From assembly GCA_002254565.1 (NCBI GenBank), contig NJEG01000005.1, positions 1 through 34,902 of the forward strand: DNA of 34,902 nt, read 5' to 3'. The position numbers were made by a program, and so were the translations under genes. Below, piece by piece: positions 2,456 to 8,844 of this stretch. This DNA comes from Candidatus Altarchaeales archaeon ex4484_2. Lineage in GTDB: Archaea; Altiarchaeota; Altiarchaeia; IMC4; QMZM01. The first letter of the stretch is position 1, and each line of letters starts with the position of its first letter. The notes beneath the pieces are model-generated. The model did no database searches. It was given only the letters and a program-made list of their open reading frames with translations, and had not been told where the DNA came from.

Positions 2456-4132
2456 CTACCTGCTCTTCCACCAGCCATATCCCTTGTAACCAGCGAACAA
2501 CACAATAACAGCTGAAACAACATAGAATGCTGTTGTCGTTAAATCCAGTCCACCATTACCTGTTTTCTGGGTTCTGCTTGATAAGAAGGTGTTGAGGCCG
2601 CCTGTTGCACCACCAACCGTTACCTTCTCCACCTGGGTTACTCTCTCGTTGCCTGGACCATTGTATTCAAGTATCAGGGTGGCGGGCCCAGAAAGTGAGG
2701 CATCAAAGCTGAATGTGGTTTGCTTGGTTGCATCGATGTCTGCCTTGTATTCAATGAATCTCTGCACCTGTGTTTTGTTTGAAATCACACGAGCCTGGGA
2801 GGTTTCTTTAGAGGACGTTACATCACCTGGACCAAACAGCATTCTATTGAATCCTCCGGGCATCCTATTATCTCCCCTTCCAGTTTCGGTGGCTGAATCT
2901 GAATCAGAGACCGTTGCCCCAATACCCGTTACCAGAATAGCCTTAACTCCCTCAGCCGCTCTTGTGCCAACGTTCGCGACCTCGATTTTAACCGAGCCAG
3001 TGCCTGCCTCAACCTTGATAACCTCCAACATGACCTCCCCGCTAACATCCAATCCCACATTTTTCTCCACACTGTAGGAGGTGCCTCCCAGCTTATAGTC
3101 TAGGGTCAAGGGTGTGCCATATACTTTCATTTCCGCGTCCAAGCCAACTGCTACCCTAAATACTGCGTTAACTTCCCCACCAGCCTCAACAACTCCCAAG
3201 TATCTCTCGGAGGTGTCTGCTGGAGTGAATGGGTCGGAGAGAGACAGGGTGAGAGAAACATCTTCTGCGGGGATAGAACCAATATTCTTCAGGGAGATGT
3301 TCACTGGAACACGATCTCCAGGCCCCATGGATTCATAGCTTATCTTGGTTATCTTAAAGTCCACGCCAGCCTCATCCACCATCAACCCAATGGAGAGGTT
3401 GTCTGAAACCCTATCGCCTGAGCCATCAAGATAGGAAAGCGAGAGGCTTGCATCACATATCCCGGAATCCGAGGGCTTGACGTCATAGGATAAGGTGAAT
3501 ATGGTGTCAGCATCCACATCTCCAACATATCGTCTGCTAGAGCCTACAACACTCAAGCAGGAAGATGATAACTCAGCTATCATCCCCTCAACATCAGATA
3601 AACCCACAACCTCAAAAACTAATTCATTCAGGCTGTCCTTATATAGGGTTGTTTCTGTAGGCGTTACCTGAAATAACGGCTCACCTGAGACTGTGACAGG
3701 GATCTCCCAGGTGGTTTTCTGGTTGTAGACGGGATCACCTTCAGAGTCAGAGCCGTGGTAGTCAATGTCCACCTTTATCCCGGTTAAACCATTAGCTACA
3801 TCATCATCTACCTTAATCCAGACAGGCAGGGTCTTGGATTCCCCCGATTTGAGGTTGCCTAGATAGAACTTCTTGTTCACGTTAACTCTGGCTGTGCTGT
3901 GTATCCACACCTCAACATTACGGGCATTATATTCTCCCGTGTTTTCAACAACCAGGTTCAGTATACCGCTCTCACCAGGCTTCAGAGACGAATCCATCTG
4001 GGTTGAATCAAAGTCAACAACCACATTCGTCGGATTAGAGCTGCCGGAGGCGGCATAAACCGTCAACAAAATAGTCGAAAGCAATACAAAAAATAGCATA
4101 AACCACATAAGTCCTTTAGTCTTCATCTCCAT
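2456..4132 (-). CDS. Secreted CARDB/COG1361 (S-layer-like) beta-domain protein with C-terminal TM anchor
   Basis: N-terminal signal peptide, repeated 'LKPGESGILNLVVENTGEYNARNVEV'-type beta-sandwich motifs, C-terminal hydrophobic segment (AFYVVSAVIVLFAGYKGYGWW). Directly upstream of the MacB-like pair. Confidence 0.8.
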   Translation of the reverse strand: MEMKTKGLMWFMLFFVLLSTILLTVYAASGSSNPTNVVVDFDSTQMDSSLKPGESGILNLVVENTGEYNARNVEVWIHSTARVNVNKKFYLGNLKSGESKTLPVWIKVDDDVANGLTGIKVDIDYHGSDSEGDPVYNQKTTWEIPVTVSGEPLFQVTPTETTLYKDSLNELVFEVVGLSDVEGMIAELSSSCLSVVGSSRRYVGDVDADTIFTLSYDVKPSDSGICDASLSLSYLDGSGDRVSDNLSIGLMVDEAGVDFKITKISYESMGPGDRVPVNISLKNIGSIPAEDVSLTLSLSDPFTPADTSERYLGVVEAGGEVNAVFRVAVGLDAEMKVYGTPLTLDYKLGGTSYSVEKNVGLDVSGEVMLEVIKVEAGTGSVKIEVANVGTRAAEGVKAILVTGIGATVSDSDSATETGRGDNRMPGGFNRMLFGPGDVTSSKETSQARVISNKTQVQRFIEYKADIDATKQTTFSFDASLSGPATLILEYNGPGNERVTQVEKVTVGGATGGLNTFLSSRTQKTGNGGLDLTTTAFYVVSAVIVLFAGYKGYGWWKSR

Positions 4133-4217: not shown

Positions 4218-4283
4218 AAGAAACATTGATGAAACCAGCTAAATTCCCTAGTGAAACACCCGTAACAATAAATGAAACATCAC
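4218..4283 (-). promoter_or_regulatory. Shared upstream element, copy A (three TGAAAC boxes, spacing 22/21 bp)
   Basis: TGAAAC at 4230, 4252 and 4273. The 29-mer tgaaacacccgtaacaataaatgaaacat (4252..4280) is identical to copy B. Lies upstream of the 2456..4132 gene. Confidence 0.65.
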
Positions 4284-4376: not shown

Positions 4377-5126
4377 TCATATCTCTATCCTGGAGAAAAG
4401 CCATGCGCCCACCAGGTTCACCAGGATAGATAAACCTGCTAGAACAGTTAAATCAAGGGGTAGAGTAAATGACATAACCCCGGTTAAGGTAGCCCTCAAG
4501 CCATCAACCCCGTAGGATAATGGATTAACCAGAACTAGAAGCTTGATGAAGGAGGGTAAACCATCTATTGGGAACAATGCCCCTGAGAGGAAGAACATAG
4601 GCATAATCAAGAGATTCATTATCATAGGAAACGCCTGCATGTCATCTATCCTGGAGGCTATTGCAGTCCCGAAACCGGTTAAGAATATGGAAAGAAGAAA
4701 CATGAAGAAAACCGCCGGCAGGATGGAAAACCAGGAAACCGGCCTGAAGCCGATCAAGAAAGCCAACAGTAAAACAACCAGGCCCTGGATTACAGAGATA
4801 GTAGCCCCGCCAAGGGTTCTGCCGATCATAATATCAGTTCTTGATATTGGAGCAACCAGGGTCTCCTTCAGGAAACCAAACCTCCGATCCCATACCACCT
4901 CAATGCCCGTGAACATTGAAGTGAACAATATAGTCATCGCCACAATACCGGGAACCAGAAACTGCATGTAGTCAACCCCACCGGCCTTCTCGAAGACCGG
5001 GCTGAAGCCGAAGCCGAAGGCTACCAGAAACAACAAAGGCTGGCCTATGGAACCTATTAAACGGGACTTCGATCTCCAGTAACGCTTCAGCTGCCTGAGC
5101 CACATAACATAAATTGTTTGGATCAT
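4377..5126 (-). CDS. ABC-2 type transporter permease (DrrB-like)
   Basis: Six-TM ABC-2 architecture, RxLGGATISVIQG and NPLSYGVDGLRATLTG motifs, start overlaps the ATPase stop. Confidence 0.9.
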   Translation of the reverse strand: MIQTIYVMWLRQLKRYWRSKSRLIGSIGQPLLFLVAFGFGFSPVFEKAGGVDYMQFLVPGIVAMTILFTSMFTGIEVVWDRRFGFLKETLVAPISRTDIMIGRTLGGATISVIQGLVVLLLAFLIGFRPVSWFSILPAVFFMFLLSIFLTGFGTAIASRIDDMQAFPMIMNLLIMPMFFLSGALFPIDGLPSFIKLLVLVNPLSYGVDGLRATLTGVMSFTLPLDLTVLAGLSILVNLVGAWLFSRIEI

Positions 5127-5911
5127 CTCCTCACCCCCCGCCTTAACCGCATCCTATCCATTGAGGTAGCGTTCTCCTCCCTGATCGAGCGGCCTGTTAA
5201 CTGCAGGAAAGCATCCTCCAAAGAGCTGGTAGAGGTTGAACTCCTTATCTCCTCCACAGTTCCTGAAGTTATAATCTGTCCGTGGTCTATTATCGCGACA
5301 CGGTCAGCCACCTCCTCGGCCTCGGCCATGTAATGGGTTGTGAAGAAGATGGTCATCCCGTCATCTGCATTCAGCTCCAAGATGTGCTCCCAGATGTTAT
5401 TCCGGGTCTGCGGGTCCAAGCCAAGTGTTGGTTCGTCCAGAAAAAGAATTCGGGGGTGGTGTATGAGACCTCTTGCTATTTCCAGCCTCCTCTTCATACC
5501 ACCCGAGTAATATTTGACGTAATCATCCCGCCTGCTCCATAAACCAACCATCTCCATAAGCTGTTTGATGCGCTCCGTTCTTGTTTCTTTCTCAACACCA
5601 TAGAGTACGCCGTGAAACTCCATGTTCTCGTAGGCAGTAAGCTCTTCATCGATGCTCTGATCCTGGAATACTATCCCAAAAGACCTCCTTGCATCGTCCT
5701 GTTGTGTCAGGGGATTGAACCCATTAACCATTAGTTTCCCTGAGGAGGGTTTAAGGAGCGTTGTAAGCATCTTGATTGTGGTGGATTTACCGGCCCCGTT
5801 GGGGCCCAGGAAGGCGAAAATCTCACCCTCCCCAACATTGAACGATATGTCGTCTACTGCAGTGAAACCATTAAAGTTCTTTGTCAAATTCATAACCTTT
5901 ATCATATCCAT
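5123..5911 (-). CDS. ABC-2 transporter ATP-binding protein (DrrA-like)
   Basis: Walker A GPNGAGKST, signature YSGGMKRRLEIARGL, Walker B ILFLDEPTLGLDPQTR. Confidence 0.95.
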   Translation of the reverse strand: MDMIKVMNLTKNFNGFTAVDDISFNVGEGEIFAFLGPNGAGKSTTIKMLTTLLKPSSGKLMVNGFNPLTQQDDARRSFGIVFQDQSIDEELTAYENMEFHGVLYGVEKETRTERIKQLMEMVGLWSRRDDYVKYYSGGMKRRLEIARGLIHHPRILFLDEPTLGLDPQTRNNIWEHILELNADDGMTIFFTTHYMAEAEEVADRVAIIDHGQIITSGTVEEIRSSTSTSSLEDAFLQLTGRSIREENATSMDRMRLRRGVRR

Positions 5912-5912
5912 T

Positions 5913-6395
5913 TCACTTGATTTCCTCCAATCCAGTAAGGCATTTCCTCAACAACTCCTCAGTTTCGGCTTTTCTTTCAGGTGGTAGCTCATCCACCGTG
6001 TTTTTTATCTCAAATAGTAGATCATGCAACCCTATTTTCTCGCTGCCGAATATTTCAACGAAGAGGTTCCTGAAACACTGCATTTTTTCTTTGGGTACCT
6101 TCCTGTGTTCCCTTATATGATTCAACCTCCTCCGTCCCTGCACTGTTAGTTCAAGAACTTTTTTCGAGCGCTTATCTATTTTTTTTACCTTGATTAAACC
6201 CTCCCGCTCCAACTGGTCTAGGGTGGGATATACTGCTCCCTTGCTAGGAACCCACAGACCATCTGTTTTCTCCTTTATCTCTTTGATTATGTCATAGCCG
6301 GATTTGGGTTTTTTGTCTAGGGAGTGTAGAACGTATAGTGCCATAATCCCCCTTTCTCTTCCTTCACCGCTTGAGAACCTGCTTAAACTGCTCAC
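5913..6395 (-). CDS. PadR family transcriptional regulator (GTG start)
   Basis: PadR wHTH: IMALYVLHSLDKKPKSGYDIIKEI...GAVYPTLDQLEREGLI. Immediately upstream of the DrrAB-like exporter. Confidence 0.88.
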   Translation of the reverse strand: MSSLSRFSSGEGRERGIMALYVLHSLDKKPKSGYDIIKEIKEKTDGLWVPSKGAVYPTLDQLEREGLIKVKKIDKRSKKVLELTVQGRRRLNHIREHRKVPKEKMQCFRNLFVEIFGSEKIGLHDLLFEIKNTVDELPPERKAETEELLRKCLTGLEEIK

Positions 6396-6434: not shown

Positions 6435-6447
6435 TAGAACGGTTCTA
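6435..6447. promoter_or_regulatory. Candidate operator: TAGAAC-G-GTTCTA inverted repeat over a TATA-like element in front of the PadR gene
   Basis: Exact 6-bp inverted repeat with 1-nt centre, overlapping TATATAG, about 45 bp upstream of the PadR start. Confidence 0.5.
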
Positions 6448-6455
6448 AACAGAAA

Positions 6456-6872
6456 TCAAACCTTCAGTTTCACAAGATTCGTATTACCCAAAGGCTTCTT
6501 CTCAACGATGCCCCTGCCCTCCAGCCTCGACAGAATCCGGGAAACCTTCACCTTAGAAAGCCCTGACTCAGCCACGATATAGGTCTGCTCCAGCCTCCCA
6601 TCCTCAAGAAGTAATTCAACCACCAGGCGCTCGTCCTCAGGCAAAACCCCAAGAAGCCTCTGAAACTGTTTCCTGTTAATCCTCCACTGAAACAACAAAA
6701 CAATCAACGCACCAACGCCCATAGCAACAGCAGTCATCCCATAAACCATCAACGGGATAGAGGAGCCAGTGTCCGCCATATAATACCCGTTGAGTATGGA
6801 GAACATTATCCCCAGACCAAATACTGCAATAATCGCTACGGCTAGACGCGTCTCAGAGACCTCCATATTCAA
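6456..6872 (-). CDS. Membrane-anchored winged-helix transcriptional regulator (two N-terminal TM, C-terminal wHTH)
   Basis: Two hydrophobic helices, then LPEDERLVVELLLEDGRLEQTYIVAESGLSKVKVSRILSRLEGRGIVEKKPLGNTNLVKL. Confidence 0.75.
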   Translation of the reverse strand: MNMEVSETRLAVAIIAVFGLGIMFSILNGYYMADTGSSIPLMVYGMTAVAMGVGALIVLLFQWRINRKQFQRLLGVLPEDERLVVELLLEDGRLEQTYIVAESGLSKVKVSRILSRLEGRGIVEKKPLGNTNLVKLKV

Positions 6873-7144
6873 TCACTTAAATCCTCTTTCATCTCCAGAA
6901 AGGTTTCCTTATCTATCTCGCCCCGAACATACCTCATCTTCAACAAATCCATGGGCGTATCATGCCTCCCGGAACCCCGAAGAAGCCAATAAAATATCAA
7001 AGCCAGAACCAAAATGAAAAGAAGGTTCATGAGATAAAAAGTGGGTATGCCCAAAAGTTCATGCGGAAAAGGTTTATGCTTAAATGCAACATGAGAAAGC
7101 TTCTCCCCTGCACGGTGAACCAACTCGGTTGTTGTAACATTCAT
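6869..7144 (-). CDS. Small membrane protein with SHOCT-like C-terminus
   Basis: One TM segment plus C-terminal DLLKMRYVRGEIDKETFLEMKEDL (SHOCT-like); start and stop overlap neighbours. Confidence 0.65.
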   Translation of the reverse strand: MNVTTTELVHRAGEKLSHVAFKHKPFPHELLGIPTFYLMNLLFILVLALIFYWLLRGSGRHDTPMDLLKMRYVRGEIDKETFLEMKEDLSD

Positions 7145-7211: not shown

Positions 7212-7715
7212 TTAGACACTGGGGAAACCCATCATTCTAAAACCATGGGAACGCCCCATATGATGGCCCCGGAAACCGGCTCCCTTGCTTTCCTTAATCG
7301 CCGCATTAACATCCTCCTCGGTCGCATCCTCAGAGAGACCAAGCCTCTCTTTAATGACAGGAAGCCTCTCCCCCCTCATCAACTGCCTTCTCTCATTCTG
7401 GGCGTCAAATAATTCCCTGACGGTTGAATCCCAGGACAGGCCAAGCTCATCCAGATCCTCCTCAAATAAGGCCTCACGTATCTCCTTGTGGGTTGCGTTC
7501 TTGGTTAAATCAAGGTCCGTTAGTCTATTACTCCTTATGGCATCCATCACCTCAGAATGAGTAGCGTCCTCATCCAGTCCAAGTCCTTCTTTAATTTCAT
7601 CAGTCACAGGGCATCCACCCCCTCTCTTACCTAAGCCGCCGAATCCGACAGCATAAACCAGTCCCATAACCAGCAAAGCCGCCAAACCAGCAACAAAAAA
7701 ATTCTTTAAATTCAT
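7212..7715 (-). CDS. Secreted small protein with helical repeats of the type LGLxxDATxxEVxxAI
   Basis: Signal peptide; repeats LGLDEDATHSEVMDAI, LDLTKNATHKEIREAL, LGLSWDSTVRELFDAQ, LGLSEDATEEDVNAAI. Confidence 0.7.
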   Translation of the reverse strand: MNLKNFFVAGLAALLVMGLVYAVGFGGLGKRGGGCPVTDEIKEGLGLDEDATHSEVMDAIRSNRLTDLDLTKNATHKEIREALFEEDLDELGLSWDSTVRELFDAQNERRQLMRGERLPVIKERLGLSEDATEEDVNAAIKESKGAGFRGHHMGRSHGFRMMGFPSV

Positions 7716-7734: not shown

Positions 7735-7800
7735 AGAAGAAATAGCTGAAACCAGATAAGTCTAGGGATGAAACACCCGTAACAATAAATGAAACATACC
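7735..7800 (-). promoter_or_regulatory. Shared upstream element, copy B (three TGAAAC boxes, spacing 22/21 bp)
   Basis: TGAAAC at 7747, 7769 and 7790; identical 29-mer at 7769..7797. Lies upstream of the 7212..7715 gene. Confidence 0.65.
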
Positions 7801-8196: not shown

Positions 8197-8844
8197 ATGG
8201 AAAAATACCACCCTATTATTTTAATACTGGTTCTGTTATCAACTGCATGCATGCAAGAGAATCCAGAGACGATGACAGATATGGTAAAAACACCGGCTGA
8301 TTGTGGGAAAATAGAGGACATCGAGAGCAGAGAGAGATGCCTGATGAATATGGCAATAGAGAACATGGAACCCAAACTCTGCGATGAGATACAGTACACC
8401 CCCTACAGAACAGCATGTCTCCAGAACACAGCCAAGAAACTCAAAAACCCTGGAATCTGCGAGAAAATAGAGGATAAAAGCCAGAGAAACAATTGCATCA
8501 CATCCATAGCCCAGGAAACATGCGACCCCCTCTTCTGCGAGAAAATAAACCAGACAAACGAAAGAGATAACTGCTTCACCCTAACAGCCTACCGCCAGAG
8601 AAACATCACCACATGCAATGAAATAGAAAACAGCTACAAGAGAGATGGCTGCCGTCTGGAGGTAGCAAAGACTCTGGGAGACTATCTCCTCTGCGACAGG
8701 ATACAGAAAAAAAACCTGTGGGATGAATGCACCCTCCATATAGCAATAGAAACCATGAACCCAAAAGTATGCGATAGATTTACTATAGTATACAAGAAAC
8801 AGGACTGTCTAGGAGCTATAAAGAGAGCGCAGCAAGGTGACTAA
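8197..8844 (+). CDS. Lipoprotein with seven 26-aa C-x11-C repeats
   Basis: Lipobox-like LLSTAC; seven repeats of the form C-x-x-[IF]-x9-C (e.g. CEKIEDKSQRNNC) at constant 26-residue period. Confidence 0.8.
   Translation: MEKYHPIILILVLLSTACMQENPETMTDMVKTPADCGKIEDIESRERCLMNMAIENMEPKLCDEIQYTPYRTACLQNTAKKLKNPGICEKIEDKSQRNNCITSIAQETCDPLFCEKINQTNERDNCFTLTAYRQRNITTCNEIENSYKRDGCRLEVAKTLGDYLLCDRIQKKNLWDECTLHIAIETMNPKVCDRFTIVYKKQDCLGAIKRAQQGD

Follow-up and report, generated by a model that had tools for sequence, protein, structure and literature searches.

Predicted operator elements around TATA-like stretches and their candidate membrane-anchored DUF7343 regulator in an order of Altiarchaeota

Two near-identical 49-bp elements found in the analysed DNA of Candidatus Altarchaeales archaeon ex4484_2 (contig NJEG01000005.1; the whole stretch of 34,902 nucleotides is called the window) are very probably operators of promoters controlled by a membrane-anchored one-component regulator, the DUF7343 protein encoded at 6456-6872 on the minus strand. 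This prediction from sequence is based on the architecture of the elements, their conservation and position, their co-occurrence with the regulator and the association of its paralogues with the same boxes; from these we infer the binding, its sign and the signal.

Copy A of the element (4230-4278, minus strand) precedes the CARDB-MacB-ATPase genes, and copy B (7747-7795, minus strand) precedes an operon encoding a helical-repeat protein, a SHOCT-like protein and the winged-helix (wHTH) regulator. The original prediction had described a TGAAAC triplet at 4230, 4252 and 4273; the triplet is real, and a second set with the same layout lies at 7747, 7769 and 7790. The 29-mer repeat that it had reported is also present, 4252-4280 being an exact match to 7769-7797, and this 29-mer does lie, as had been stated, 120-148 bp upstream of the minus-strand gene (start codon at 4132). 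Since both copies lie upstream of minus-strand genes, sequences are given here in the gene direction, in which each copy reads GTTTCA-N5-TGnnAC-N4-GTTTCA-N16-GTTTCA. The distal, middle and proximal GTTTCA boxes occupy 4273-4278, 4252-4257 and 4230-4235 in copy A and 7790-7795, 7769-7774 and 7747-7752 in copy B. Several features had previously been overlooked. Indeed, TGnnAC is an internal inverted, relaxed half-site 5 bp from the distal box (TGTTAC in both copies, at 4262-4267 and 7779-7784), and together with the middle box it makes up a dyad of 16 bp; one relative, G016, has a perfect version (TGAAACGCCTGTTTCA). Furthermore, a TATA-like stretch is found between the middle and proximal boxes, in the N16 spacer, and ends 4-6 bp ahead of the proximal box; it is AATTTA in copy A (4240-4245) and CTTATC in copy B (7755-7760). 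Finally, copy B stands at the head of the wHTH-encoding operon, with just 31 nt between it and the 7212-7715 start codon; the ATG at 7715 is preceded by the SD sequence GAGGTGAT, and transcription would start at about 7732. Two-box pairs at the element spacings number 4 in the window compared to 0.05 expected from shuffles, none of 100 shuffles reaching 4, while the full 49-bp pattern has 2 window matches (expected 0.01), both exact though 3 mismatches were permitted. In the window's own genome, the profile model described below shows copies A and B as strong matches and all others at chance level.

The first gene behind copy A encodes a secreted CARDB/NEW3 protein (2456-4132), followed by a MacB/FtsX-type permease (1280-2452) and the ABC ATPase of a MacB-type transporter (604-1389). 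Behind copy B, the first gene encodes a secreted helical-repeat protein with LGLxEDATxEE repeats (7212-7715), for which no Pfam or NCBIfam family was found above cut-off and whose predicted structure is of high uncertainty. It is followed by a single-TM SHOCT-like protein (6869-7144), the partner gene of the wHTH here and in relatives, and by the candidate cognate regulator itself (6456-6872), composed of two TM helices and a C-terminal MarR-like winged helix. The same locus holds an ABC-2 permease (4377-5126) and an ABC-2 ATPase (5123-5911), whose membership in the regulon is uncertain, and a PadR regulator (5913-6395), which we reject as the cognate regulator. All these genes are on the minus strand. 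At 8197-8844 the window also encodes a small secreted protein with repeated Cys-containing units, and similar ones are found elsewhere in the genome and in the order.

A pattern search across 121 genomes detected the element in genomes related to that of the window, a lineage which named matches to the regulator protein place in Candidatus Altiarchaeota/Altiarchaeales. A sequence profile was then made from 20 elements picked by exact three-box matches, and its search displays 23 elements in 12 of the 24 Altiarchaeota genomes of the order, with E values up to 1.5e-5 and a clear gap to the next match at 0.0019. Since the 20 were chosen by exact boxes, their box invariance is by construction; this does not apply to the conserved linker positions or to three later elements with one mismatch each (in G002, G017 and G023). 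All 23 elements have the same orientation, each pointing into a member of three gene classes, namely small secreted helical-repeat genes (homologues of 7212-7715 or similar small secreted/lipoprotein genes), SHOCT-wHTH operons and CARDB-MacB-ATPase operons. The reading of the original prediction, an array of operators serving envelope genes, finds good support in the fixed spacing and orientation and in the recurrence before orthologous genes. Element-bearing genomes carry one to three copies, mostly at a single locus, and a reversed control pattern is absent from the order's genomes except G011, G022 and G027. The distance from the proximal box to the start codon is typically 28-55 nt, with 14-15 nt in G012 and up to 97 nt for copy A; these values fit expectation if transcription starts about 20 nt after the proximal box start. 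In one relative, a single ABC-2 ATPase gene is split between L107 (end of G017:C10) and L108 (start of G017:C84), two contigs which are probably contiguous. In G108, an unrelated archaeal genome, TGAAAC-containing arrays are seen at L023, L040 and L037-L039, mostly at contig ends; the 21-bp and 24-bp tandem arrays of this genome match the pattern but are unrelated repeats and were set aside.

The presence of the element follows that of the regulator. Close wHTH orthologues (E<1e-50) are found in 10 genomes of the order, all 10 of which carry elements, and no genome among the 24 has an orthologue without an element (Fisher p 7e-5 across the order). An element without the orthologue is observed in two genomes of the window's own genus, G001 and G002, which are 75% and 60% complete, respectively; in G001 the contig ends within the SHOCT gene, just short of the wHTH position. 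In most orthologue genomes the element lies ahead of the SHOCT-wHTH operon, either directly or via the helical-repeat gene; in G012 the pair itself has no element immediately upstream.

The 6456-6872 product matches Pfam DUF7343 (PF24034) with 57.8 bits for a cut-off of 27.6. Its translation starts with MEVSE at 6866, the recognition helix holds SKVKVSR and the wing GNTN. The AF2 model (mean pLDDT 78) displays two long hydrophobic helices at 5-33 and 39-60, a recognition helix at 105-117 and a wing at 121-134, the DUF7343 wHTH match being located at 79-136. According to this model, the protein would combine a DNA-binding domain with at least one TM region in one chain, as transmembrane transcription regulators (TTRs) do; it has no separate sensor domain, and its outside loop is of about ten residues. 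By Pfam it falls outside the MarR family (MarR_2 24.3 for a cut-off of 27, MarR 20.5 for 24.6), yet the predicted fold is a MarR-like winged helix: the best Foldseek matches (E about 1e-4, prob 1.0) are mostly MarR proteins, the closest solved structures being mostly repressors of this type, with a high rmsd because the TM part is unmatched. A PDB sequence search gave weak wHTH matches only. The window's genome encodes a second DUF7343 protein of 342 aa (L008, G000:C24, 449-1566); after its gene and ahead of the next one lies TGGAAC-N4-GTTTCA-N17-GTTTCA, and the two probably represent a second regulator-operator pair. Distant paralogues of the window's regulator are also seen as tandem-duplicated two-TM-wHTH modules, in one ORF at L115 (7368-8537) and L117 (1195-2073) and split by a stop at L116 (64-930).

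Outside the order, a protein-profile search found the sole other full-length wHTH orthologues (E below 1e-58) in G278, G311 and G244, which belong to one family of a different archaeal phylum. Each shows four boxes spaced 21-20-22 ahead of an operon for a secreted protein, SHOCT and wHTH; in G311 the last box has one mismatch. The G278 locus had been reached via a weak motif match, whereas G311 and G244 were reached via the protein alone and their boxes sought afterwards. Weak profile matches outside the order, in G278 and G295, adjoin a 173-174 aa paralogue, and one in G311 was treated as chance, lying inside an ORF (L190).

In other archaea, the TGAAAC boxes next to short DUF7343 membrane proteins follow two additional fixed layouts. 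One of them, the 32-bp layout (GTTTCA-N5-TGAAAC-N15-GTTTCA), is found beside genes for thioredoxin-like CPHC-type proteins; the other, the 24-bp layout (TGAAAC-N2-GTTTCA-N18-GTTTCA), is found beside membrane genes that include HMA-domain metal transport and DsbA-like ones. In all three layouts a TATA-like stretch lies at the same distance, 4-9 bp, ahead of the proximal box. At spacing 32, GTTTCA ranks first of all hexamers across 88 non-redundant loci (8; next 4), and it reaches a count of 11 at spacing 24; counts as high at any single spacing are otherwise seen for A-rich words only. A motif-first search for the 24-bp layout in 394 genomes gave 47 matches, compared to 2 with the pattern reversed. 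Of the 44 matches checked, 25 are no more than 700 bp from a DUF7343-type gene, as are 18 of the 26 mismatch-free ones; one of these sites, a palindrome, is scored on both strands. Several of the remaining one-mismatch matches fall within long ORFs and resemble chance occurrences. The box association varies with the recognition helix: for 87 DUF7343-type proteins picked by protein search, the box geometry occurs nearby at 13 of the 22 with a K[VI][KR][VI]xR-kind helix compared to 6 of the 65 others (p 6e-6). The list of geometries was fixed after part of the loci had been inspected, which biases it toward TGAAAC. Permuted hexamers give a mean of 0.12 of the 22 KVKVxR-type loci against the 13 observed, a control that leaves this bias in place, but the motif-first search and the two orthologues reached protein-first are independent of it. 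Exact boxes are absent nearby at the other 9 of the 22 loci. Moreover, GTTTCA pairs at 21-22 bp show no general enrichment near the 30 top-scoring DUF7343 genes, which mostly encode long proteins, and the box signal resides in the short two-TM forms. Box-linked regulators near metal or thioredoxin-like genes often display cysteine pairs in the inter-TM loop (CSHGxxCPMW, CTCGxxC, CGCxxP, CSC), seen at L164, L166, L167, L172, L175, L181, L237, L238, L241, L242, L244, L273 and L281, and members beside metal-ATPase or thioredoxin-like genes are possible sensors of metal or redox state. No such pair is present in the outside loop of the Altiarchaeal group. At L282, L283 and L284, a variant site TGAAACATGTTTCA(TGAAAC) overlaps the end of a DUF7343-type gene, beside other membrane proteins.

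Under the operator reading, the regulator would bind GTTTCA/TGAAAC half-sites, with the central dyad TGnnAC-N4-GTTTCA and the distal GTTTCA placed upstream of the putative TATA box and a further GTTTCA abutting its downstream side. Given the spacing of the sites, 21 and 22 bp apart, the protomers would share roughly one face of the DNA. The regulator would control its own SHOCT-wHTH operon (autoregulation), the small secreted protein and the CARDB-MacB exporter operon, which would represent a small envelope-maintenance regulon. The bound, membrane-tethered protein would most likely exclude TBP/TFB and hence repress, the repression being lifted when an envelope signal reaches the two TM helices. 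Repression is favoured as the sign of regulation, with modest confidence, since the TATA box lies between half-sites, one of which is in contact with its downstream edge. The main alternative, activation by the same regulator at the same sites, is a sizeable though lesser possibility, in which the distal box and the dyad would recruit TFB/TBP to a weak TATA/BRE and the proximal box would anchor the complex. It is suggested by the upstream dyad and by the poor TATA stretches of the three-box elements (GATATA, CTTATC, GATATC), with no conserved BRE, by the location of three of the four half-sites upstream of TATA, and by EarA and ArnR, which are activators at upstream sites (PMC13286277; PMC6396743). 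However, in each of the three layouts the proximal box directly adjoins TATA on its downstream side, and the inverted box of the 32-bp layout reaches the BRE position; simultaneous TFB binding thus looks hindered.

The boxes could instead define a class of promoters recognised by a specialised general factor, an alternative TFB or TBP, as they flank the TATA stretch at a fixed distance. This is very unlikely, given that the presence of the element tracks the wHTH orthologue and not the lineage, that paralogues of the same wHTH family adjoin the same half-site in other arrangements and that the box association varies with the recognition-helix sequence. Control of the boxes by the PadR protein is still less probable. 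PadR proteins often regulate neighbouring ABC transporters and this PadR gene sits between the two element copies, but true orthologues are found in only 2 of the 24 genomes (G000 and G012) compared to 12 with elements, and the gene has a different palindrome of its own over its TATA. Hence, of the two candidate regulators named by the original prediction, the membrane wHTH is retained, on co-occurrence, autoregulatory position and paralogues, and the PadR protein is rejected. The palindrome, TAGAACGGTTCTA at 6435-6447, is unrelated to TGAAAC, overlaps the TATA-like ctatatag upstream of the PadR gene and is likely the PadR operator. Finally, the view that the element is a repeat of mobile or CRISPR-like nature with no part in regulation, for which the exact 29-mer common to both copies could speak, can be dismissed, as the copies are not scattered in the genome but lie consistently before the same gene classes in the same orientation across 12 genomes, linkers diverge while boxes stay and an Rfam search gave no match.

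Membrane-anchored one-component regulators are already a known class in archaea, a bacterial and archaeal survey of TTRs counting 1,384 archaeal cases (PMC10269533). The window's regulator shares with them the one-component design of TM helices and DNA-binding domain; a text search of the survey (PMC10269533) showed no mention of DUF, operator or binding site, whereas a half-site, a promoter geometry and a regulon are proposed here for one archaeal family. ArnR and ArnR1 of Sulfolobus acidocaldarius, described in 2019 as the first archaeal membrane-bound regulators studied biochemically, control cell-surface genes and require two operator boxes for binding, TCGAC-N5-GTCGA, upstream of BRE (PMC6396743). 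They are composed of an N-terminal HTH, HAMP and sensor domains and two C-terminal TM helices (PMC6396743). In contrast, the window's regulator has N-terminal TM helices and a C-terminal wHTH, with GTTTCA on both sides of TATA; given the opposite topology and the different box, it falls outside the ArnR family. EarA, the Methanococcus archaellum regulator, is likewise a small archaeal wHTH that relies on a 6-bp box present several times in one promoter, but its box is a different hexamer, TACATA (PMC6396743), and it is described as binding upstream of the promoter (PMC13286277). The likeness to the MarR family concerns the predicted C-terminal fold and the dyad of about 16 bp, a membrane anchor taking the place of the soluble dimerisation and ligand region. 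In the bacterial Cpx/Spy-type envelope stress response, an envelope sensor acts on small secreted proteins and an exporter and is autoregulated; here the likeness would be in the inferred logic only, with no kinase or response regulator. The Sulfolobus A(N)TTTC UV motif was rejected as a parallel, the TGAAAC in its paper being part of a primer.

Together, these observations make it likely that a widespread archaeal family of small membrane-anchored DUF7343 regulators has a common half-site, GTTTCA/TGAAAC, and a promoter grammar in which TATA is bracketed at spacings specific to each family (21/22, also 21-20-22; 24 combined with the dyad TGAAAC-N2-GTTTCA; 32 combined with the dyad GTTTCA-N5-TGAAAC), with metal or redox sensing possible near metal-ATPase/thioredoxin-like genes and the Altiarchaeal group serving the envelope. 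DUF7343 proteins are found in 110 of 150 sampled archaeal genomes. The novelty is provisional since the literature searched, in which no paper was found on DUF7343 by name and nothing relevant on TGAAAC/GTTTCA hexamers in archaea, lies outside most subscription journals. Few of the archaeal membrane-bound regulators have known binding sites, and the predicted site, regulon and recognition helix make the DUF7343 family directly testable in vitro. The predicted site also lets targets be listed in uncultured archaea, and the boxes around TATA make concrete how a membrane-tethered factor may reach a promoter and block or help it.
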